Shown here: positions 1-10,446 of the stretch, piece after piece
Numbering within the stretch: position 1 is the first letter of the stretch
Layout of the letters: every line of letters starts with the position of its first letter
Source of the DNA: an uncultured Mucilaginibacter sp.
Lineage (GTDB): Bacteria; Bacteroidota; Bacteroidia; Sphingobacteriales; Sphingobacteriaceae
Direction of reading: 5' to 3'
NCBI GenBank assembly: GCA_946479225.1
Contig: CAMLFI010000047.1
Location: forward strand, 1-10,681
DNA length: 10,681 nt
Notes under the pieces: model-generated
The model's input: the letters and a program-made list of their open reading frames with translations, nothing else
Databases searched by the model: none
Told to the model about the DNA's origin: nothing
Made by a program: the position numbers and the translations under genes

Positions 1-2500
1 CAGATTTGTAATAAAGGCCGGCACCAAGCGGCATCCCGGTGTTTGCTTGATAAGCAAATGCAGGCGGAACCTCGTCCATAAAGATGATCTTACTTTTTGC
101 ATAAGCTACGTTTGCGGTAACTGAATAAGACACCTGTCCAATCTTGTTCCGATGTGTCAAATCCACTTCAAACCCGCTGGTATTCACCTTTCCTATGTTT
201 TCTTCGGGCAATTTGGGGAATCCGTTCACCGCACTAACCGAAAGATTGCGCTGACGGAGGATGTTTGATCGTTTTTGATTGAATACAGTAATGTCTACAT
301 CAAGCTTTCTGTTGAATAAACTAGCACTCAATCCGAAGTCCAGTTTTTTACTCACCTCCCATCCAATATTCGGATTGGAAAGAACAGTGGAGAAAATACC
401 CGGTACGGTACTGCCGCCAAAAACATAATTATTTCCAAAGTCAAAAGTCTGTAGGAATTGGAATTGACCCACCTGGTCATTACCAAGCTCGCCATACGAA
501 GCCCTAAGCTTTAAAGTATTGACAAATTGCACAGGCTTCATGAAATCCTCCTCAGATATTACCCAGCCTGCAGATGCAGATGGGAAGAATCCATATCTGT
601 TATAAGTAGGAAATATGGTCGACCCGTCAGAGCGGAATGCAAATTCCAGCAAGTATTTGGATTGATAATTATAATTTAATCGACCCAAATAACTATTGTA
701 AGCTCCCGCAGAAGCATTGCCGGCATTGCCTAAATCCTCTGGTCTCGTGCCCCCTAAACTAACTTGCGGAAGTGCCGCGCTAAGAAAGTTTCTGCGTGTC
801 GCCGATGCAAACGTATTTGAATTTCTCTGCTGCTCGGCACCTACCATTGCGGCGATGTTATGGTCTTTGCCAATTGTAGTTCTGTAAGATAGCCTAACGT
901 TGGTTAGGGTAGTGACCCACCTGTCGTATCTATCGGTAAGTTGTATCGGAGAAGTCGATGCTATACGATCATAGTCCTTCGTGTTTGGATTGTACACGTG
1001 CCAGTAATGTGGCTGAGAGAAGTTTTTTTGGAACTGGTTTCTCAAGTCGTAATTATAGGAAGCATCAAGCACCAATCCATTTACATGAGGCACTTTAAAA
1101 GATGCTGTAAATGTTGTAGTTATAGGATCATCTTTCCATTGCTGGTACCCTCTCCGGTCTGAAAGAAGCGGGCTGTTATCAAATCGCCCCCCGGCAAGCA
1201 GCCCGTTAGGGTATATGGCTGGTAGCGTTGGATTTGCCTGCAATGTGGTAGAGAAGTCAGTTCCATTTGCTGCAGTCCGCTGAGTGAACACGCCAGCGAT
1301 ATTAGCACCTACGGTTAAATACTGTGATAGATCTGCATCAATTCTTACTCTGGAGTTATACTGGTTATATTTGTAAGGTTGATTTTTAAAATTACTGCCT
1401 TGGCTAGCTGATCCGAAAGAAAGCAGGTATCTCACCTTATCCGAGCCTCCGCTCGCCTGAAAATTCAGCCTTTTCTGGGGAGTGTTCCTATTTAAAGATA
1501 CATCTGCCCAATTAGTGTTCGGGTATAAAATGGGGTCAGACCCGTCACGGTATTTTTGGATCTCTGCAGCCGACTTATAGGGCCCTCTTCCCAGGTAAGA
1601 ATAGGTTTCATTTACCACCTCCGAAAACAGCGCCGCATCCATCATTTCCGGAATTTTGGTAGGGTTAGTAATACCATATACGTAGGAGAAATTATAACTG
1701 GTCTTGCCTCTGGCGCCTGGTTTGGTGGTAACCAAAACTACGCCGTTGGCGGCTCGGGCACCATATATAGCAGCTGAACCGTCTTTTAATACGGTTATAC
1801 TCTCAATATCCTGCGGGTTAAGGGTTGAAAGTATCCCTGTACCACGCGGCACACCGTCAACTACAATCAGAGGGTTATTGTTACCAAAAGTACTTGCACC
1901 GCGAATGACGATGTTGAGATCTTCTGCCCCAGGTACGCCATTACGCTGATTGACAACGAGGCCAGGTAGTCTACCTGCCAGGCTGGTTGTAACATTCACA
2001 GACTGGTTTTTAGTTAGATCTTCCCCTTTCACTCTTGATATCGAACCCGTCAGGGTTTCTCTTTTTTGGGTACCATAACCCACCACAACAACTTCATCAA
2101 GTTGTGTATCTATGGGTACAAGTTTTACATTGATAATTGCACCATTGCCTGCAGGTAAATCTTGGGGTTGATATCCCAGTACCGTAAAAGTTAGTGTAGC
2201 ATTATTGGGCACTGTGATAGAATACTTACCATTTCCATCGGTTATTACCCCGTTTGTTGTTCCTTTTACTGTTACACTAACGCCGGGCATCGGCTGGTTA
2301 GTTTCGTCTGTTACAGTACCGGTCTTGGTTACGTTTTGCTGTTGCAGCAAGGCGGTGGTATTGAAGTTTTCTATCCCATGCACACTTTCGTGAGCGCTTG
2401 AAATATTGACTAGAGCGATAGTCGCAATTGATGTTGCAATTACCGTTTTTTTGGACAATACCGTCCATGCTCGAAGCATGACCTTCGAATTTAATGTCAT
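1..2500 (-). CDS. SusC-like TonB-dependent outer-membrane receptor (partial; C-terminus beyond left edge)
   Basis: This is an outer-membrane importer of oligosaccharides powered by TonB, normally paired with a SusD surface lipoprotein. The frame is open for 833 codons from ATG at 2500-2498 to the left edge; the family is usually about 1,000-1,100 residues, so the last strands of the barrel are missing. Residues 1-36 look like a signal peptide (KK at 17-18, hydrophobic core, cleavage near SSA|HES). Next come a carboxypeptidase-regulatory-like domain (about 60-130, with GTVTDETNQPMPGVSV), the conserved DEVVVVGYGT segment (135-144) and a plug domain with VIRGAST, VVDGVPRG and LKDGSAAIYGARAANGVVLV (about 150-260), then barrel. 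There is no STN domain between signal peptide and regulatory-like domain, so sigma/anti-sigma transenvelope signalling is unlikely. It is divergent from the araC gene. A second ATG lies at codon 8, but the longer start keeps a normal signal peptide. Specificity cannot be read from the sequence. Confidence 0.95.
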   Translation of the reverse strand, partial: MTLNSKVMLRAWTVLSKKTVIATSIATIALVNISSAHESVHGIENFNTTALLQQQNVTKTGTVTDETNQPMPGVSVTVKGTTNGVITDGNGKYSITVPNNATLTFTVLGYQPQDLPAGNGAIINVKLVPIDTQLDEVVVVGYGTQKRETLTGSISRVKGEDLTKNQSVNVTTSLAGRLPGLVVNQRNGVPGAEDLNIVIRGASTFGNNNPLIVVDGVPRGTGILSTLNPQDIESITVLKDGSAAIYGARAANGVVLVTTKPGARGKTSYNFSYVYGITNPTKIPEMMDAALFSEVVNETYSYLGRGPYKSAAEIQKYRDGSDPILYPNTNWADVSLNRNTPQKRLNFQASGGSDKVRYLLSFGSASQGSNFKNQPYKYNQYNSRVRIDADLSQYLTVGANIAGVFTQRTAANGTDFSTTLQANPTLPAIYPNGLLAGGRFDNSPLLSDRRGYQQWKDDPITTTFTASFKVPHVNGLVLDASYNYDLRNQFQKNFSQPHYWHVYNPNTKDYDRIASTSPIQLTDRYDRWVTTLTNVRLSYRTTIGKDHNIAAMVGAEQQRNSNTFASATRRNFLSAALPQVSLGGTRPEDLGNAGNASAGAYNSYLGRLNYNYQSKYLLEFAFRSDGSTIFPTYNRYGFFPSASAGWVISEEDFMKPVQFVNTLKLRASYGELGNDQVGQFQFLQTFDFGNNYVFGGSTVPGIFSTVLSNPNIGWEVSKKLDFGLSASLFNRKLDVDITVFNQKRSNILRQRNLSVSAVNGFPKLPEENIGKVNTSGFEVDLTHRNKIGQVSYSVTANVAYAKSKIIFMDEVPPAFAYQANTGMPLGAGLYYKS

Positions 2501-2637: not shown

Positions 2638-2669
2638 TTTGTGGTAAAAATGGTTGTCAAATTAACTTG
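2638..2669 (+). promoter_or_regulatory. Weak candidate promoter for the araC-family gene
   Basis: A TTTG at 2638-2641 is followed after 21 bp by TAACTTG at 2663-2669. This resembles, imperfectly, the Bacteroidota -33 (TTTG) and -7 (TAnnTTTG) promoter pattern. The -7-like box and expected start site fall inside the left copy of the 69-bp element, which would fit autorepression. The match is one base short of the consensus spacing within the -7 box, and the region is so AT-rich that chance matches are likely. The remainder of the 2501-2771 intergenic region is AT-rich leader sequence with a short TTTAATAA-type tandem repeat near 2594-2611. Confidence 0.2.
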
Positions 2670-2725
2670 TAAAAAACTGTATAGCGTTGCACGTAATTAC
2701 CGTATTATTAAGGAATATTACCATT
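2657..2725 (-). promoter_or_regulatory. Left copy of the duplicated 69-bp element, facing susC (putative AraC-family operator/promoter)
   Basis: Read on the minus strand, this 69-bp stretch matches 3681-3749 read on the plus strand. The first 20 bases are identical (AATGGTAATATTCCTTAATA) and the last 9 are identical (TTAATTTGA); overall 54 of 69 positions agree without gaps, by hand count. GGTAAT occurs at plus-strand 2717-2722 and again at 2696-2701 (as ATTACC), exactly 21 bp apart. The terminal TTAATTTG agrees with the Bacteroidota -7 consensus TAnnTTTG at all but one fixed position and may be the activated -7 box for susC, which would give a leader of about 150 nt. The element also covers the region just upstream of araC, so autoregulation is plausible. 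The operator role is inference; the repeat is directly visible. Confidence 0.7.
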
Positions 2726-2771
2726 TTATGGAAGATGCTTTCTAAAATTGGTATGTTTACCTCAGTTAATT

Positions 2772-3656
2772 ATGGAACCGGAATTACTCAAAGTTTCTAA
2801 CCAGTCAGCCTTTTCTTTTAGTATAAGGTTAGACCGTGTGCCAAACGTAAATAGCAGATGGCATTTTCATCCCGAAGTTGAGCTTATATACCTTCATCGC
2901 GGTTCTGGAATGCAGTTTATTGGTGATAGTATAAAAAGATTTCACGAGGGCGATATAATTTTAATTGGATCTAATCTGCCGCACTACTTCAAATTTGATA
3001 AGGAAAAGCAAATAAGTAGTAATAATGAAAGTCCTTATTCAACAGTTATTCATTTTTACGAGGACTTTTGGGGTAGGGCATTCCTTGAATTACCTGAAAA
3101 TGCTATTATTAAACGCGCTTTGGAAAAGGCAAAAAGAGGTATTCTGATTTCAGCTAGAAAAGAACCTATAATCTCCAATTTGATAAAGCAATTGTCCGTG
3201 TCTGAAGGCCATTCGCGCATAGTATTGTTAATGGAAGCTCTTGCGTTAATCGGTTCCAGCAGTAGCGGAAAATTACTATCATCAATAGGTTTTAAATATA
3301 ATTTCGAAGAGTCTGATAAATACCGCATAAACCTTATTTATGAATATTCTTTTGCTCATTTTAAAGACAAAATTTCATTGCAAAAGATTGCTCAGATTGC
3401 TAACCTTGCGCCTAATTCCTTTTGTCGTTATTTTAAAGCAAAAACCAGGAAAACTTATTTTCAATTTGTTAATGAGATACGCGTAAGCCACGCTTGTAAA
3501 TTGCTTATTGAGGACGAGGTTAGTATAAAGCAAATATGTTATGAAAGTGGCTTTAATAATTTTTCCTCTTTTCATGCTGTTTTTAAGCAAATAACCGGGA
3601 AAACACCACTTACTTATAAGCAACATATTATTCCAAGTTCCGCGCTTGCTAATTAG
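2772..3656 (+). CDS. AraC-family transcriptional regulator with N-terminal cupin domain
   Basis: This is a cytoplasmic DNA-binding regulator of 294 residues, normal for the family. The N-terminal half is a cupin-type effector domain: WHFHPEVELIYLHRGSG at about 30-46, then a second-motif-like stretch HEGDIILIGSNLPH at about 58-71. The C-terminal half (about 190-290) holds two helix-turn-helix units: LQKIAQIANLAPNSFCRYFK at 203-222, and IKQICYESGFNNFSSFHAVF at 252-271 followed by KQITGKTPLTY. The second unit matches the AraC signature. An in-frame TTG at 2748 would add eight residues (VCLPQLI-type, unlike the family); I prefer ATG at 2772, which begins directly at the typical N-terminus. It lies between the susC-like gene and the sugar-oxidation operon and is flanked by inverted copies of a 69-bp element, so it probably controls both. 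The inducer is unknown; L-galactose or a pathway intermediate is the natural candidate. Confidence 0.95.
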   Translation: MEPELLKVSNQSAFSFSIRLDRVPNVNSRWHFHPEVELIYLHRGSGMQFIGDSIKRFHEGDIILIGSNLPHYFKFDKEKQISSNNESPYSTVIHFYEDFWGRAFLELPENAIIKRALEKAKRGILISARKEPIISNLIKQLSVSEGHSRIVLLMEALALIGSSSSGKLLSSIGFKYNFEESDKYRINLIYEYSFAHFKDKISLQKIAQIANLAPNSFCRYFKAKTRKTYFQFVNEIRVSHACKLLIEDEVSIKQICYESGFNNFSSFHAVFKQITGKTPLTYKQHIIPSSALAN

Positions 3657-3672
3657 TGGACTAATTAGCAAG
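3645..3672 (+). terminator. Perfect 12-bp hairpin overlapping the araC stop codon
   Basis: CTTGCTAATTAG (3645-3656) and CTAATTAGCAAG (3661-3672) form a perfect 12-bp stem with a TGGA loop, and the TAG stop codon is the last three bases of the left arm. Its place at the gene end, just before the next regulatory element, suggests a transcription terminator or mRNA-stabilising hairpin. There is no T-run after the stem (ATTCCGG follows), so it is not a classical intrinsic terminator. The inner CTAATTAG is itself a palindrome and so occurs twice with a 12-bp period; a protein-binding site is the alternative reading. Confidence 0.5.
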
Positions 3673-3680
3673 ATTCCGGT

Positions 3681-3749
3681 AATGGTAATATTCCTTAATA
3701 GTAAGTTAATTTCCTGCAATCGCTAACAATTTTTAAGCAGTTAATTTGA
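3681..3749 (+). promoter_or_regulatory. Right copy of the duplicated 69-bp element, facing the sugar-oxidation operon (putative AraC-family operator/promoter)
   Basis: This is the plus-strand partner of the element at 2657-2725, with the same length and a perfect 20-bp core at 3681-3700. The direct repeat is GGTAAT at 3684-3689 and GTTAAT at 3705-3710, again 21 bp apart; both are followed by TTCCT within a few bases. A third related site, AGTTAATTT, is present at 3739-3747 (also at 3704-3712), and the element ends in the conserved TTAATTTGA. The next gene downstream is the aldo/keto reductase, 249 bp away. Conservation of this stretch, in contrast to its diverged flanks, points to a common binding protein, most simply the regulator encoded between the copies. 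Confidence 0.7.
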
Positions 3750-3998
3750 AGCTCCGATCAATTATAGCCAATATTAAAATGATGCCCCAAAATCATAAAT
3801 TATTAGCATTTTTTTGAATGGGCAGCATAACTATGTTTTTTAATTACCATATGGTTGTTTATGCAAATCATATTTTTAACGCAGGCTACTTTATGCGTAA
3901 TTATAGAATCGGTTTGAAGAATAAATTGATATCTTTAAAATTAATTATGGGGTTATTTATGGCTGAATATCGAAGTCGCAAATAATTTCGAACAAATT
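3750..3998 (+). other. AT-rich leader region upstream of the sugar-oxidation operon
   Basis: No gene is supported here. Visible items are an ATGAT/ATCAT dyad near 3780-3797, a 10-bp palindrome ACCATATGGT at 3846-3855, and TATCTTTA at 3930-3937, which differs from the Bacteroidota -7 consensus TAnnTTTG in the last base and lies about 60 bp before the aldo/keto reductase start. The nearest upstream TTTG (3913-3916) is only 13 bp from it, shorter than the usual spacing of about 19-21 bp, so a promoter here is uncertain. A 12-codon ORF at 3947-3985 (MGLFMAEYRSRK) has no supporting evidence. No riboswitch-like fold is recognisable by eye. Confidence 0.4.
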
Positions 3999-5027
3999 AT
4001 GACCAACATCCTAAATCAATCAACTCCGAATTTGCCAAAAATAGTTTTTGGCACAAGCAGCCTTGGAAATTTATTTGTAGCACTTAATGATACTGTAAAG
4101 CAGGATATAGTTGCGGAGTGCGTTAAGCATTCGCCAGGTAAGGTGGTATTTGATTCCGCCGGTAAATATGGAGCTGGTTTGGCACTTGAATCACTTGGCA
4201 GAGCATTAAGTGATTTAGAAGTTAACCCTGACAATGTTGTTATAAGCAATAAATTGGGATGGTTTAGAACAGAATTGAAAACCCCTGAACCAACATTCGA
4301 AAAAGGGGTATGGGTAGGTATAAAGCATGACGCTGTTCAAATGATAAGTTATGATGGCATGATGAAATGTTTTGAACAGGGTAATGAATTGCTAGGCGGA
4401 TGGGCCTCTGAAATGGTTTCAGTACACGACCCGGATGAATATCTGGCAGCCGCCACTTCGCCCAAAGACGAAGCAAAAAGATACAATGACGTACTTGAAG
4501 CCTATAAAGCGTTAGTCGATTTAAAGGCCGGAGGGCGGGCCAAGTCAGTAGGAATAGGAGCGAAGGATTGGAGGACAATTGTTAGAATAGCGAAGGATGT
4601 AAAGCTGGATTGGATAATGGTAGCCAACAGCATGACAATTAAAAGCCACCCGGCGGAATTGTTGGAATTTATGGCAGATATGAAGCGAAAAGGCATTCCT
4701 ATTATCAACTCAGCCGTATTCCATTCAGGATTTTTAATTGGCGGTACTCATTATGATTATAAACTGGTGGATGAGAATTTTCCGGGACATAACGAGCTCT
4801 TAAAATGGCGCGAAGACTTCTTTGCCACTTGTAAGGAATTCAACATCACACCCGCAACTGCCTGCGTGGCATATGCATTAAAGGTGCCGGGTGTAGAAAG
4901 CGTTGCATTAAGTACTACTAACCCTTTGCGAGTTAAGGATAATATAAATATGGCCCATGCAGTCATTCCAAAAGGTTTTTGGACGAAAATGGTTGAAAGA
5001 GGTTTGTTAGATTTCTCTTTTAACTAA
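3999..5027 (+). CDS. Aldo/keto reductase, predicted L-galactose (L-fucose/D-threo-aldose type) 1-dehydrogenase
   Basis: This is a cytoplasmic NAD(P)-dependent oxidoreductase of 342 residues with an (alpha/beta)8 aldo/keto reductase fold, predicted to oxidise the anomeric carbon of an aldose to the aldonolactone. The catalytic tetrad is readable: D52 and Y57 (FDSAGKYGAG), K85 (VISNKLGW) and H143 (SVHDPDEY). The N-terminal KIVFGTSSLGN matches the first strand of the D-threo-aldose/L-fucose/L-galactose dehydrogenase subgroup. The C-terminal VALSTTNPLRVKDNI occupies the usual cofactor-binding position. It is first in the tight run and starts 7 bp before a lactonase, which supports a dehydrogenase that makes a lactone. 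L-fucose is the main alternative substrate, but the UxaB-like enzyme downstream and the absence of fuconate dehydratase favour L-galactose. No clear ribosome-binding site is seen before the ATG, as is common in this phylum. Confidence 0.9.
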   Translation: MTNILNQSTPNLPKIVFGTSSLGNLFVALNDTVKQDIVAECVKHSPGKVVFDSAGKYGAGLALESLGRALSDLEVNPDNVVISNKLGWFRTELKTPEPTFEKGVWVGIKHDAVQMISYDGMMKCFEQGNELLGGWASEMVSVHDPDEYLAAATSPKDEAKRYNDVLEAYKALVDLKAGGRAKSVGIGAKDWRTIVRIAKDVKLDWIMVANSMTIKSHPAELLEFMADMKRKGIPIINSAVFHSGFLIGGTHYDYKLVDENFPGHNELLKWREDFFATCKEFNITPATACVAYALKVPGVESVALSTTNPLRVKDNINMAHAVIPKGFWTKMVERGLLDFSFN

Positions 5028-5034
5028 CAAGAAT

Positions 5035-5871
5035 ATGTCAAAAATAGATTCTCATCAACACTTTTGGAAATATGATCCGATACGGGATTCATGGATAACG
5101 GATGACATGGCCGTGATTCAAAGAGATTTTTTCCCTGAAGATCTTGAACCGGTACTTAAAAATAACGGAATTGACGGTTGCGTAATAGTGCAATCTGATC
5201 AGTCTGAAGAAGAAAACAGTTTTCAATTAAAAAATGCTGCAGATCATAGCTTTATTAAGGGAGTTGTCGGTTGGGTTGATCTTTTGTCGGCAGATGTTGA
5301 GCAAAGACTTGAATATTACAGCCAATTTAAAAAATTGAAAGGTTTTCGGCATGTGTTACAGGGCGAGCCACAGCGCGATTTTATGTTGCGCCCCGATTTT
5401 TTAAATGGTATATCGTTGCTTAACAAGTATAATTTCGCATATGATATTCTGGTGTTTCCGGATCAGTTAAAATTTACCAACGAAATGGTTGCAATGTTTC
5501 CTGAGCAGAGATTTGTTTTGGATCATATTGCTAAGCCTTATATTAAAGATAAAGTTTTAACAGACTGGGATGTGAATATTAAGGCGTTGGGCAAATTTGA
5601 TAATGTGTTCTGCAAAATTTCAGGAATGGTTACAGAAACCAATTGGAATAACTGGCAACCAGAGGAATTTGACCCATACATAGATGTTGTAGTTAACGCC
5701 TTTGGAACCGACAGAATAATGTTTGGATCTGATTGGCCCGTTTGTAAAGTAGCCGCCACTTACGAGGAAGTGCATGGCATTGTTAAAAATTACTTCTCCG
5801 GTTACAGTGAGAGTGAAAAAGGGAAGATCCTTGGAGAAAATGCAATTAAGTTTTATAGTTTATCTGAATAA
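5035..5871 (+). CDS. COG3618 amidohydrolase-family lactonase, predicted L-galactono-lactone hydrolase
   Basis: This is a cytoplasmic 278-residue TIM-barrel hydrolase of the amidohydrolase superfamily (COG3618, Amidohydro_2). Family members open sugar lactones such as L-fucono-1,5-lactone, L-rhamnonolactone and L-galactono-lactone. Visible motifs are IDSHQHFW (H7 and H9, start of the barrel), GFRHVLQGEP (about 103-112), LDHIAKP (H164), CKISGM (193-198) and FGSDWPV, in which D233 is the expected catalytic acid, followed by the C-terminal ENAIKFYSL. Length is normal. It lies 7 bp after the aldose dehydrogenase and 3 bp before the zinc dehydrogenase, so translation is probably coupled. The expected step is hydrolysis of L-galactono-1,5- (or 1,4-) lactone to L-galactonate; substrate choice rests on context and not on sequence alone. 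Confidence 0.9.
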   Translation: MSKIDSHQHFWKYDPIRDSWITDDMAVIQRDFFPEDLEPVLKNNGIDGCVIVQSDQSEEENSFQLKNAADHSFIKGVVGWVDLLSADVEQRLEYYSQFKKLKGFRHVLQGEPQRDFMLRPDFLNGISLLNKYNFAYDILVFPDQLKFTNEMVAMFPEQRFVLDHIAKPYIKDKVLTDWDVNIKALGKFDNVFCKISGMVTETNWNNWQPEEFDPYIDVVVNAFGTDRIMFGSDWPVCKVAATYEEVHGIVKNYFSGYSESEKGKILGENAIKFYSLSE

Positions 5872-5874
5872 AAA

Positions 5875-6885
5875 ATGAATTCGTTGGTTTGTGCCCATCC
5901 GGGAAAATTTGAATATAAGCAATCTGATCGGCCCGTGTTAACTCCCGGAAATGCCATTATAAAAATAAGAAGAATTGGCATTTGCGGGACAGACCTTCAC
6001 GCCTTTAGGGGCACGCAGCCATATTTTAATTATCCGCGTGTGTTAGGACACGAACTTTCGGGCGATTTAGTTGAAGCTGATGATGCACCTGGATTTACGA
6101 TAGGTGAGCGTGTAACTTTTATACCCTACATTAACTGCCAGCATTGTATTGCATGCAGATCCGGCAAGCCTAACTGCTGTGTAAATATCCAGGTGTGTGG
6201 CGTGCATATTGACGGCGGCATGGCCGAATATTATTCCATTCCTTCTCGGTTATTAGTACACGGCGAAGGATTAAGTTATGATGAATTGGCACTGATTGAG
6301 CCTTTAGCCATAGGTGCACACGGTATAAGACGGGCCGGAGTTGTTCCCGGCGAATTTGTATTGGTAATTGGTGCCGGCCCTATTGGCTTAGGCACCATGG
6401 AGTTTGCCCGTATAGCGGGTGCCCGGGTTATCGCTATGGATATAAATGATAACAGACTTGCTTTTTGTAAGGAAAAGTTGGGTATACATTACACAGTTAA
6501 TGCACTGGAAGACGCAAAAGAGCAAATAAGTAAAATTACCGGTGGCGACATGCCTACTGTAGTAATAGATGCTACAGGCAACCAGAAAGCTATAAACTCG
6601 GCGCTTCAATTTATGGCGCACAGCGCTCGTTTAGTACTGATAGGTTTACAGAAAGAAGAAATATCGTTTAGTCATCCTGAGTTTCATAAACGCGAAGCCA
6701 CGTTAATGAGCAGCAGAAATGCAACCCGAGAAGACTTTGAACATGTTATTGATTCGGTAAAAAAGGGGCTTATTAATCCGCTGGCTTATATAACACATCG
6801 TTCAGCGTTTAACGCACTGAGCGTAGATTTTCAAAGCTGGCTAGATCCGGCTTCAAACGTAATTAAGGCCGTTGCTACATTATAA
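5875..6885 (+). CDS. Zinc-dependent MDR alcohol dehydrogenase, predicted L-galactonate 5-dehydrogenase (LgoD type)
   Basis: This is a cytoplasmic medium-chain dehydrogenase of 336 residues. Catalytic-zinc residues are C37 (GICGTDLH), H59-E60 (LGHELSG) and E142 (LIEPLAIG). Structural-zinc cysteines are C88, C91, C94 and C102. The Rossmann motif GAGPIG lies at 166-171, and D189 at the end of the second strand suggests NAD over NADP. The general layout matches the sorbitol/threonine dehydrogenase subgroup that includes E. coli LgoD (YjjN), which oxidises L-galactonate at C5 to D-tagaturonate, and, as I recall, the corresponding Bacteroides vulgatus enzyme. Lying between a sugar lactonase and a tagaturonate reductase, that reaction is exactly the missing step. 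L-gulonate, L-idonate or another polyol is the alternative substrate. Confidence 0.88.
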   Translation: MNSLVCAHPGKFEYKQSDRPVLTPGNAIIKIRRIGICGTDLHAFRGTQPYFNYPRVLGHELSGDLVEADDAPGFTIGERVTFIPYINCQHCIACRSGKPNCCVNIQVCGVHIDGGMAEYYSIPSRLLVHGEGLSYDELALIEPLAIGAHGIRRAGVVPGEFVLVIGAGPIGLGTMEFARIAGARVIAMDINDNRLAFCKEKLGIHYTVNALEDAKEQISKITGGDMPTVVIDATGNQKAINSALQFMAHSARLVLIGLQKEEISFSHPEFHKREATLMSSRNATREDFEHVIDSVKKGLINPLAYITHRSAFNALSVDFQSWLDPASNVIKAVATL

Positions 6886-6896
6886 ATAGAATTACG

Positions 6897-8399
6897 ATGG
6901 ATGGACAGAATGCGGCGACGACAAGCGTTAACCTTATACGCCTCTCAGGTAAAACCGTGGGCCACATCAATGCCCCCGATGTGATTACACCCTCTATTGA
7001 TTATTTGACGCTTCCCGTCAAAGTTTTACAATTTGGTACTGGCGTTCTATTACGTGGATTAACAGATCACGTTATTGACAAAGCTAATAGAGCCGGCATA
7101 TTTAATGGACGAATTGCTGTTGTAAAGTCAACAAGTACAGGCGGTACCGACGCTTTTGCCGGGCAGAACAATCTGTATACGCTGCAGATGAAGGGCATCG
7201 AAAATAAGCAGTTAACGGAAGAAACCGTTATTAATACTTCTATAAGTAAAATATTATCTGCCGCCGGGGAGTGGGATCTGGTTTTAAAGGAAGCTGAAAA
7301 TCCCGAACTCACGGTTGTTATTTCAAATACGACTGAAGTTGGCCTTCAGTTGGTAGAAGAAGATATTACTCAGCAACCACCTTCATCATTCCCTGCAAAG
7401 TTATTAGCTGTATTGCATCATCGGTATAAAACTTTTAACGGGAGCAGCGAAAGCGGTTTGGTAATTATACCCACGGAGCTTTTACCTGAAAACGCAACTA
7501 TACTCAGATCAATTATAACACAACTCATTGCCTTTAACCACTTGAGCGCTGATTTTGAGAACTGGATAAATGAAAATAACTATTTCTGCAATTCATTGGT
7601 GGATAGAATAGTAACCGGCAAGCCATCAGCCGAAGAACAACGTCTCTTCGAAGAAAAGAACGGGTACCGTGATGACTTATTGATCGTATCAGAGCCGTAT
7701 TGCCTATGGGCTATTGAAGGCAATGATAAAGTAAAATCAATTTTGAGTTTTGAACAGGCAGATCCCGGTGTTATTGTTATCCCCGATATTGAAGTTCATC
7801 GCGAGTTAAAATTACGCCTTCTGAATGGTACGCACACGCTGAGTTGCGCGTTAGCGCTCACTATGGGTTTTGATCTGGTAAATGCGGCAACCAACGATGC
7901 GGAATTTTCTTCCTTTTTGCAAAATTTAATGGAAGAGATAAGGTTGGCTATGCCCTATAAAGCTGAACCTGCGCTGATGAAAGACTTTTCTGAGCGGGTT
8001 TTAGATAGGTTCAGAAATCCATATATACAGCATCAATGGGTAGCCATCGCGCAGCAATACACTACCAAAATGATAACAAGAGTGCTTCCTGTTCTGAAGG
8101 AGCATTATAGGTTATACAAACATGCCCCTGAAAACATAGCAAGAGGATTTGCTGCTTATATTTCACTTATGAGTAAGGTTATTAAGTATAATGATCAGTA
8201 TTATTTAGTTTATAAGAGTGAACGTTATCTTTTAAAAGACGAGAAAATAGCTTTGTTGGTAGCTAAGTGGGCTACACACTCAACAGAAAGTATTGCATCA
8301 GAAGTTCTTGACAGTAGTGAAATATGGGGAGAAGACTTATCACAATTACCAGGTTTTGTAAATGCAGTTCAACACCATTTAAATAACCTGATTAAATAA
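6897..8399 (+). CDS. uxaB: Tagaturonate reductase (altronate oxidoreductase, UxaB family)
   Basis: This 500-residue cytoplasmic enzyme (E. coli UxaB is about 480) belongs to the polyol-specific long-chain dehydrogenase family and reduces D-tagaturonate to D-altronate with NADH. The Rossmann start is VLQFGTGVLLRGL at 43-55. UxaB hallmarks follow: SNTTEVGL (143-150), FNG...GLVIIPTELL (180-196), SLVDRIVTG (233-241) and RFRNPYIQHQ (371-380). Active-site residues are K305, N310 and H313 (LKLRLLNGTHT), with the same spacing as the Lys-Asn-His set of mannitol dehydrogenases. The start at 6897 leaves about 40 residues before the first strand, slightly longer than E. coli. It is the last gene of the packed run, 11 bp after the zinc dehydrogenase. 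Its presence indicates that the pathway goes through tagaturonate; altronate dehydratase is not in the window. Confidence 0.93.
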   Translation: MDGQNAATTSVNLIRLSGKTVGHINAPDVITPSIDYLTLPVKVLQFGTGVLLRGLTDHVIDKANRAGIFNGRIAVVKSTSTGGTDAFAGQNNLYTLQMKGIENKQLTEETVINTSISKILSAAGEWDLVLKEAENPELTVVISNTTEVGLQLVEEDITQQPPSSFPAKLLAVLHHRYKTFNGSSESGLVIIPTELLPENATILRSIITQLIAFNHLSADFENWINENNYFCNSLVDRIVTGKPSAEEQRLFEEKNGYRDDLLIVSEPYCLWAIEGNDKVKSILSFEQADPGVIVIPDIEVHRELKLRLLNGTHTLSCALALTMGFDLVNAATNDAEFSSFLQNLMEEIRLAMPYKAEPALMKDFSERVLDRFRNPYIQHQWVAIAQQYTTKMITRVLPVLKEHYRLYKHAPENIARGFAAYISLMSKVIKYNDQYYLVYKSERYLLKDEKIALLVAKWATHSTESIASEVLDSSEIWGEDLSQLPGFVNAVQHHLNNLIK

Positions 8400-8505: not shown

Positions 8506-10446
8506 ATGAAAATTAATAAGTCCGCCGTTTTGGGGTTGTGTATAGCAGTTATATGTAATTCTGTTGTATTAGCACAAAAAATATCGGTCCAATCACCCAA
8601 CCAAAAAATAAGCGTTGGGTTGTTTAATCAGCAAAATGGCGATAGAGGCGTTTGGTATTTAAAAGTATCTTACACAGCAGATAGCAAATCAACTGAAGCT
8701 ATTTCGCATATCGATCTTGGATTAGTAAGAGCCGATCAGGAATTTGCAAAGGAATTGACGTTTGTAAAAGCAGGGAAGCTTACGCCGATAAATGAGCAAT
8801 ATAAAGCAGTTTACGGTAAGCGCTCAGTTAGAAGTAATAGTGCAAACGAAGTAATGATCTCGTTTCAAAATCCGGATAAAACTAAATTGAATATCATAAT
8901 ACGAGTCTACAATGACGGCATGGCATTTCGGTATGAATTTCCGGACAAACAAGCCGCCGTTATGGTTAAGGACGAGTTGACTGCTTATAGTATCCCAAAG
9001 GAAACCAACCGGTGGATGGAAAAATGGAATGCAGCCAATGAAGGTTATTATACGGCGATGAGTGATGACAAAGTGCAGCAGCAGGAGTGGTGCTACCCCG
9101 CACTTTTCAATACAAAAGATAATGCATGCTGGTTTTTACTGCATGAAGCCGACCTCGACAGAAATTATTGTGGAACCAAGTTGAGTAACGTGACCGATGC
9201 CACAAAGTATAAACTTACCTTTCCTAATCCTAGAGACGGACGCGGAACAGGGGTATCTGAGCCAACAATAAATTTCCCTTGGAAATCACCTTGGCGGGTT
9301 GTAATTATGGGCAAATTGCAGGATGTGGTTGCTTCAACACTGGTTGATGATATATCCACTCCATCGGTAGTTAAAAACACAGATTGGATAAAGCCGGGCC
9401 TTGTATCATGGAATTACTGGTCAAGCAATCACGGTACGAAAGATTATAAAATAATTACCCGTTTCGCAGACCTGGCTGCTGATATGAATTGGCCGTACAC
9501 TCTTTTAGATTGGGAGTGGGATAGTATGGGCAATGGCGGCAAATTAGAAGATGCTTTAACTTATATAAAGGCCAAGGGTGTAAAACCCTTAATGTGGTAT
9601 AACTCCGGAGGCAACCACACTACTGTAACTTCAACGCCGAAGGACCGTATGCTCACGCATGAAAGCCGCGTAGCTGAATTTACTAAGCTGAGAGAATTAG
9701 GTGTGGCGGGTGTTAAAATAGATTTTTTTGAGAGCGAAAAGCAGAATATGATCCAGTATTACCTGGATATTTTAGATGATGCCGCACAATTTCAGATCAT
9801 GGTGTATTTTCACGGTTGCCTGGTTCCACGTGGATGGTCAAGAACCTACCCGCACTTAATGACTTATGAAGCAGTTCGCGGTGCGGAGTGGTACAATAAC
9901 GTACCCGATTTTACGATGGCTGCGCCTGAGCATAACACCATTTTGCCGTTTACCCGCAACGTAATCGGGCCAATGGATTATACACCGGTTACATTTACCA
10001 ATTCGCAATATCCACACGTTACATCTTATGGCCACGAGCTGGCTCTGAGCGTGCTGTTTGAATCAGGTTTGCAACATTTGGCAGATAGGCCCGAAGGATA
10101 CTATGAGCTACAGGATGCGGCAAAAGCTTTTTTACGAAACGTGCCTAATGCTTGGGATGATTCAAAGTTAGTGGATGGTTATCCCGGTAAGGATATAACA
10201 ATGGCGCGCCGTAAAGGCAACAATTGGTACATAGCAGGTATAAACGGCGAGCAGCGCGAGAAAAGAAAGAGTATAAAGCTTGATTTTTTAACTGACAAAG
10301 TAAAATATAAGCTAACGCTTATTGCAGATGGCGCTCATGACAAAGAATTTTCCACACAATATATGGTGGTAGATAAATCCAGTACGATAGATATTAAAAT
10401 GTTGCGTCGAGGTGGCTTCGCAGGCGTTATAACAAGCGAACTTTAA
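8506..10446 (+). CDS. Exported glycoside hydrolase family 97 enzyme, retaining (alpha-galactosidase-like) subgroup
   Basis: This is a 646-residue secreted or periplasmic hydrolase. Residues 1-23 form a type I signal peptide (KINK, hydrophobic stretch, VVLA|Q); there is no lipobox. The N-terminal GH97 beta-sandwich covers about 25-285 (RVYNDGMAFRYEF at 133-145), the catalytic TIM barrel about 295-545 (PGLVSWNYWSS at 297-307, LLDWEWD at 333-339), and a C-terminal beta domain follows. In the barrel D406 (GVKIDFFES) fits the nucleophile and E461 (EAVRGAEW) the acid/base; their 55-residue spacing equals that of D415/E470 in the retaining alpha-galactosidase BtGH97b, as I recall it. E455 fits a calcium ligand. 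Inverting SusB-type glucosidases lack this aspartate. Known retaining GH97 substrates are alpha-D-galactosides and beta-L-arabinopyranosides, so its place beside an L-galactose pathway is unexpected. It follows uxaB by 106 bp. Confidence 0.93.
   Translation: MKINKSAVLGLCIAVICNSVVLAQKISVQSPNQKISVGLFNQQNGDRGVWYLKVSYTADSKSTEAISHIDLGLVRADQEFAKELTFVKAGKLTPINEQYKAVYGKRSVRSNSANEVMISFQNPDKTKLNIIIRVYNDGMAFRYEFPDKQAAVMVKDELTAYSIPKETNRWMEKWNAANEGYYTAMSDDKVQQQEWCYPALFNTKDNACWFLLHEADLDRNYCGTKLSNVTDATKYKLTFPNPRDGRGTGVSEPTINFPWKSPWRVVIMGKLQDVVASTLVDDISTPSVVKNTDWIKPGLVSWNYWSSNHGTKDYKIITRFADLAADMNWPYTLLDWEWDSMGNGGKLEDALTYIKAKGVKPLMWYNSGGNHTTVTSTPKDRMLTHESRVAEFTKLRELGVAGVKIDFFESEKQNMIQYYLDILDDAAQFQIMVYFHGCLVPRGWSRTYPHLMTYEAVRGAEWYNNVPDFTMAAPEHNTILPFTRNVIGPMDYTPVTFTNSQYPHVTSYGHELALSVLFESGLQHLADRPEGYYELQDAAKAFLRNVPNAWDDSKLVDGYPGKDITMARRKGNNWYIAGINGEQREKRKSIKLDFLTDKVKYKLTLIADGAHDKEFSTQYMVVDKSSTIDIKMLRRGGFAGVITSEL

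Follow-up and report, generated by a model that had tools for sequence, protein, structure and literature searches.

Inverted 69-bp elements on both sides of an AraC-type gene in a Mucilaginibacter are putative promoters for coordinated sugar import and oxidation

Within a 10,681-bp stretch of DNA from an uncultured Mucilaginibacter sp. (hereafter the window), a gene for an AraC/XylS-type regulator is flanked by two 69-bp elements in inverted orientation. Comparison with related genomes makes it very probable that each element is one regulated promoter and that the regulator encoded between them binds both copies, switching susC and a catabolic operon together.

Results

Two inverted elements flank the regulator gene

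Compared on opposite strands, the elements (Table 1) are identical at 54 of 69 positions, and their arms head the list of inverted pairs that a repeat search returned for the window (69 nt, 78%). In 500 first-order Markov shuffles, the best 69-nt inverted match between both intergenic regions had a mean of 35.7 identities (SD 1.7) and a maximum of 45. The pair described in the initial annotation, with its coordinates, equal length, inverted arrangement and number of identities, is therefore borne out, as is the perfect 20-bp core shared by both copies. The far end, annotated as a perfect match of 9 bp, is indeed perfect, but over 11 bp (3739-3749 in the right copy). A weaker likeness (AGCA..TTCC) that was thought to continue on the araC side did not hold up: the AGCA is in register, the TTCC is one base out, and the likeness is absent from the six other sites of the ortholog clade. 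We regard it as chance.

Between the araC flanks, the best inverted match over 69 nt drops from 54 identities in the window to 47 in the closest orthologous locus (L111) and to at most 39 in 80 relatives. By raw similarity, those 80 relatives contain no comparable second inverted pair (best 26/40 over 40 nt and 39/69 over 69 nt), and querying five relatives with 100 bases of DNA from the right element gave no match.

Table 1. Coordinates of genes and putative regulatory features in the window
Feature	Position	Strand	Remarks
SusC/RagA TonB-dependent importer gene, putative left target	2..2500	-	TIGR04056; runs off the window
Left 69-bp element	2657..2725	-	
Presumed susC-promoter -7 box TTAATTTG	2658..2665	-	one mismatch to TAnnTTTG
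Putative left operator half-site 2 GGTAATTACGTGCAACG	2685..2701	-	21 bp further, direct repeat
Putative left operator half-site 1 GGTAATATTCCTTAATA	2706..2722	-	inside perfect 20-bp core 2706-2725
AraC/XylS-type regulator gene, 294 aa	2772..3656	+	N-terminal AraC_binding/cupin PF02311, C-terminal HTH_18 PF12833
Right 69-bp element	3681..3749	+	
Putative right operator half-site 1 GGTAATATTCCTTAATA	3684..3700	+	inside perfect 20-bp core 3681-3700
Putative right operator half-site 2 GTTAATTTCCTGCAATC	3705..3721	+	21-bp offset
Presumed catabolic-operon promoter -7 box TTAATTTG	3741..3748	+	TTTG spacing, one mismatch to TAnnTTTG
AKR, fuconolactonase-like amidohydrolase, RspB-like Zn-dehydrogenase and tagaturonate reductase genes, putative right target	3999..8399	+	family profile matches
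GH97 glycoside hydrolase gene	8506..10446	+	PF10566; downstream of the enzyme genes

The regulator and the genes around it

The regulator has the C-terminal double helix-turn-helix of the AraC/XylS family (PF12833, 2.1e-20; PF00165, 2.9e-09) together with the N-terminal cupin-like ligand-binding domain of its sugar-responsive members (PF02311, 4.3e-07), and a protein search returned homologues at 95% and 87%. The gene names originally given around the elements are right in outline. To the right, four families fitting a sugar dehydrogenase, a lactonase, an L-galactonate dehydrogenase and a tagaturonate reductase stand consecutively. The tagaturonate reductase scores 508 bits, above the cut-off of 359; the nearest model for the amidohydrolase is L-fucono-1,5-lactonase (267 bits, below the cut-off of 400); the Zn-dehydrogenase is RspB-like and below its own NCBIfam cut-off; and the AKR has only a weak likeness to solved L-galactose dehydrogenases. 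Judged by these families, the enzyme set fits a putative route from L-galactose, the presumed substrate, via L-galactonate to tagaturonate and altronate. PMC12632266 names tagaturonate as an intermediate in the breakdown of L-galactose by Phocaeicola vulgatus and of L-galactonate by E. coli.

Two further features adjoin the regulator gene. The araC stop codon is spanned by a perfect 12-bp inverted repeat with a 4-nt loop (3645-3672; fold -15 kcal/mol), the only hairpin of the window with arms of at least 10 bp and a loop of 3-9 nt. It is possibly an insulating terminator, one without a T run, and the equivalent stretch of the closest ortholog genome contains no hairpin with arms of at least 7 bp. 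At the other end, TATGTTTA on the plus strand (2752-2759), immediately before araC, may be a -7 box of araC itself; the left operator would then be an upstream element of araC as well, which may suggest autoregulation.

Both copies resemble an operator joined to a promoter

Each copy looks like a regulated promoter module in which two direct-repeat half-sites 21 bp apart precede TTAATTTG. We read both copies in this way because they combine the 21-bp half-site repeat with a fixed TTTG spacing and the published -7 box, whose Bacteroidota consensus is given as TAnnTTTG (PMC7366714). A position weight matrix (PWM) built without the window scores the left motif (2701-2722) at 20.4 bits and the right motif (3684-3705) at 14.8 bits. 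Eight sites make up the ortholog-clade set, two of them from the window, and 30 of 110 columns are invariant among them. On the 38-nt PWM trained on these eight, the sites score 44-54, with the right site of the window lowest (44.1 versus 51.9 for the left).

Offset counts returned the arrangement expected of an AraC/XylS operator, two direct-repeat half-sites approximately 21 bp apart. In the ortholog clade the best offset is 21 bp (9.6 of 17 matches; the next best among offsets 8-39 gives 7.5), and in 54 relatives 21 is again the best among offsets 18-24 (4.0 of 8 versus 2.0-2.6 for the others). The spacing to the presumed promoter is similarly constrained: TTAATTTG lies 57-64 bp from the operator start, and the TTTG stands at +61 in seven of the eight ortholog-clade sites and at +60 in the remaining one, as well as at +60/61 in 29 of the 54 relatives.

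On inspection of the sequence, neither copy has a TTTG at the expected -33 distance. A -33 motif was likewise not identified in Flavobacterium johnsoniae, according to the excerpted text of PMC7366714. The missing TTTG would fit dependence on an activator, though the -33 motif is also absent in some Bacteroidota. With the inner half-site reaching into the -33 region, the layout resembles that of an activator in contact with RNA polymerase.

The elements recur in genomes with close orthologs of the regulator

Orthologs of the regulator were found in G011 (88% identical) and G098 (73%) among 149 genomes of the genus, and in G165 (70%) among 399 genomes drawn from the family. G011 has the order susC, araC, MFS permease, AKR, amidohydrolase, dehydrogenase, tagaturonate reductase, altronate dehydratase, acetylesterase-like protein and GH97, the last being 82% identical to the downstream GH97 of the window. 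It retains both elements with positions and orientations unchanged. Conservation of the two copies near orthologous loci, whose absence the initial annotation had listed among the outcomes that would refute its reading, is found on both sides of araC in one of the three close orthologs, and G011 alone shares the gene order on both sides of araC. The MFS permease gene of G011 (L111 7506-8798) opens the catabolic operon, and in the window the long leader that precedes the AKR gene, downstream of the right promoter (3740-3930), aligns with the promoter and start of this permease gene; to judge from the alignment, the leader appears to be what is left of a permease gene that has since been lost.

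The other two orthologs have different layouts. On the araC contig of G098, susCD is divergent from araC, the catabolic genes are absent, and one strong element beside araC faces susC; the catabolic operon is found on a short contig that breaks off within the amidohydrolase gene, its promoter lying beyond the contig end. Downstream of araC in G165 come one further gene, a permease and then the enzyme genes; upstream, and pointing the same way, is a distant susCD (29%/24%). The sole araC-adjacent element of G165 is downstream of araC and faces the enzyme operon. Two more elements approximately 11 kb away stand back to back, facing a nearer susC relative (approximately 50%) and a GH95 gene (L125 920-3364). 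Because the G165 sites sit at the catabolic operon, at susC and at GH95, the elements accompany their targets and not araC itself. A relative of the tagaturonate reductase (47%) is located elsewhere in G165, without a strong site. GH95 is a family of alpha-L-fucosidases and alpha-L-galactosidases, and the operator before this gene points to a glycan containing L-galactose or L-fucose.

Allowing up to two mismatches, the 20-base pattern ATGKTAATATYCCTTAATAA matches twice in the 4.0 Mb of G011, at the two araC-flanking elements, and its reversed control gives no match. In G098 the same search gives three matches, one at araC and two inside reading frames; these two (on contigs C43 and C189, with two mismatches each) score below 11 bits on the 22-nt PWM and were treated as chance. 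Three extra near-matches in G165 (2-3 mismatches, with four for the reversed control) were dismissed in the same way, at no more than 15.7 on the 38-nt PWM. Two of the 149 genus genomes (G011 and G098) and two of the 399 family genomes (G011 and G165), the two sets overlapping, contain an exact match to a two-half-site pattern that was designed around the known sites; the reversed pattern has no match in either set. Among the searched genomes, the exact operator is therefore present only in the three that have an ortholog at least 70% identical.

A related motif lies beside more distant regulators

We also analysed 80 loci with regulator homologues that are 50-59% identical, the best 80 of at least 545 confirmed relatives. 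An EM motif search in 68 nonredundant upstream regions of this set, with the window excluded, recovered GCcAATATnGCTTAATAaTTnG, which is the same core. With a PWM trained on those same loci, a total of 1.96 Mb of strand gave the following matches of 15 bits or more: 57 on the outward strand in the 350 bp before araC, 4 upstream on the opposite strand, 2 in the 400 bp after the gene and 16 in other places. The search near orthologues proposed at the outset thus finds the motif beside regulator homologues, mostly upstream and facing outwards.

A second PWM was trained on 62 loci from outside Mucilaginibacter, with a training log-likelihood of 345 versus 77-94 in four shuffled sets that were given fewer starts. 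It was applied to 31 held-out loci, of which the genus of G001 supplied 30 and its family the remaining one; none was dropped, and the set keeps near-duplicates (L091 and L092) and deliberately untrained genomes (L085 = L001). At 12 bits or more, 13 of the 31 upstream regions have a match (12 outward), compared with 5 of 620 shuffled regions, and 4 of the 31 downstream regions have one, all outward. The other 18 upstream regions have no 12-bit match, several of them having weaker outward matches at -65. One shuffled region scored 19.2 bits, and lone matches therefore prove little.

The paired layout may recur in two distant relatives, which have motif matches on both sides of araC: L042 at 1503 (-), 1639 (-) and 2581 (+), and L050 at 5919 (-) and 6956 (+). 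In each, one match faces an altronate dehydratase gene. L106 and L108 have a strong outward site approximately 208 bp after araC (19.4 bits) and a weak one upstream (7.3 bits).

Discussion

We infer that an AraC-type dimer would occupy the two direct-repeat half-sites, which at a spacing of 21 bp lie on the same face of the DNA, with a footprint spanning approximately positions -71 to -34, counted from the presumed start. Its inner half-site would reach the -33 region of a promoter with the -7 box TTAATTTG. Binding to both copies would switch susC, for import, at the same time as the AKR-lactonase-dehydrogenase-tagaturonate reductase operon. Both are most likely activated, when an L-galactose-type sugar or one of its oxidation products binds the cupin domain. 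Control of import and catabolism through both copies was the reading offered from the window alone; the pair in G011, the recurrence of the motif, the arrangement in G165 and the co-occurrence with the regulator lend it good comparative support. We think it improbable, though worth stating, that a dimer-bridged loop between the operators, which are approximately 980 bp apart and in opposite orientation, encloses araC and couples import, catabolism and araC synthesis, with the motif serving as a readable code for many Bacteroidota AraC regulators.

The elements might instead bind a different transcription factor encoded elsewhere, with araC merely lying between two target promoters. These genomes probably contain many related AraC-type genes (a first look gave up to 114 candidates in a single genome, of which at most 16 were scored), leaving room for such a factor; however, the motif adjoins regulator homologues in many loci and the exact operator occurs, among the searched genomes, only alongside a close ortholog, and we give this explanation a small chance.

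Two other accounts were rejected on the evidence at hand. Generic Bacteroidota promoter sequence could make two AT-rich promoters look alike, and here both intergenic regions flanking araC have 27-29% GC and share the presumed -7 box. Yet the 20-bp core lies approximately 40 bp upstream of that box, and the core with its second half-site is confined to ortholog-bearing genomes in the overlapping sets of 149 and 399, which makes this account very improbable. That inverted copies flank a single gene would also suit a small segment, mobile or invertible, that carried araC and had the two copies as its ends. This we rate as the least probable of all: no target-site sequence is repeated just outside the arms, neither a recombinase nor a transposase was found in a scan of seven proteins from the window, the sites in G098 and G165 are single or elsewhere relative to araC, and the TTTG spacing is fixed.

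Control of both promoters by the regulator encoded between them offers a specific operator-promoter model for a subfamily of AraC regulators that occurs in Mucilaginibacter, Pedobacter and their relatives. The regulon expected from this model is very small, comprising import and an L-galactose-type oxidation pathway, with a GH95 hydrolase in one relative, and the sensed sugar becomes testable with two short DNA probes. Among the literature matches listed, which consisted of titles and abstract openings with few subscription journals, the regulator, the motif and the paired layout were not found.

Comparison with known systems

E. coli AraC at araBAD (I1-I2) and XylS at Pm use direct-repeat half-sites 21 bp apart, the inner one beside or overlapping the -35 element. 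Both of these promoters have sigma-70 -10/-35 elements, and AraC also loops via the distant O2 site. Unlike these, the presumed promoters of the window are close to the TAnnTTTG type, and we see no evidence for a distant looping site in the window.

Direct repeats of 21 bp have already been predicted for Bacteroides AraC-type regulators, as a 21-bp periodicity in the AraC-family rhamnose regulators (PMC3878776, PMC3870299) and as predicted HTCS operators with repeats averaging 21 bp (PMC3878776). E. coli RhaR and RhaS bind inverted repeats (PMC3870299), so the 21-bp direct repeat is common but not universal in AraC/XylS. The regulator resembles RhaR (BT3768) of Bacteroides as an AraC-family sugar-pathway regulator of Bacteroidota; the sugar pathway differs, and the excerpted texts describe no flanking operators on both sides of the RhaR gene (PMC3870299, PMC3878776). 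With HTCS, whose sites lie in polysaccharide-utilisation loci, it shares the AraC-type DNA-binding domain, but it is a 294-aa one-component protein with a cupin-like domain, whereas HTCS have a periplasmic sensor and a histidine kinase (PMC3878776).

CgrA of Zobellia galactanivorans is likewise an AraC-family regulator of a Bacteroidota carbohydrate locus, with a carrageenan-induced regulon that includes a distant susCD-like pair; the polysaccharide, carrageenan, differs, and the CgrA operator is not described in the excerpted text (PMC5698469). The putative catabolic route is like those for L-galactose in Phocaeicola (Bacteroides) vulgatus and Luteolibacter LG18, which have D-tagaturonate as an intermediate (PMC12632266). 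The LG18 cluster is assigned an HTH-type regulator, lguR (the word AraC is absent from the excerpted text), and it has an L-galactonate dehydrogenase and a tagaturonate reductase (PMC12632266), as the enzyme families of the window would suggest here too.
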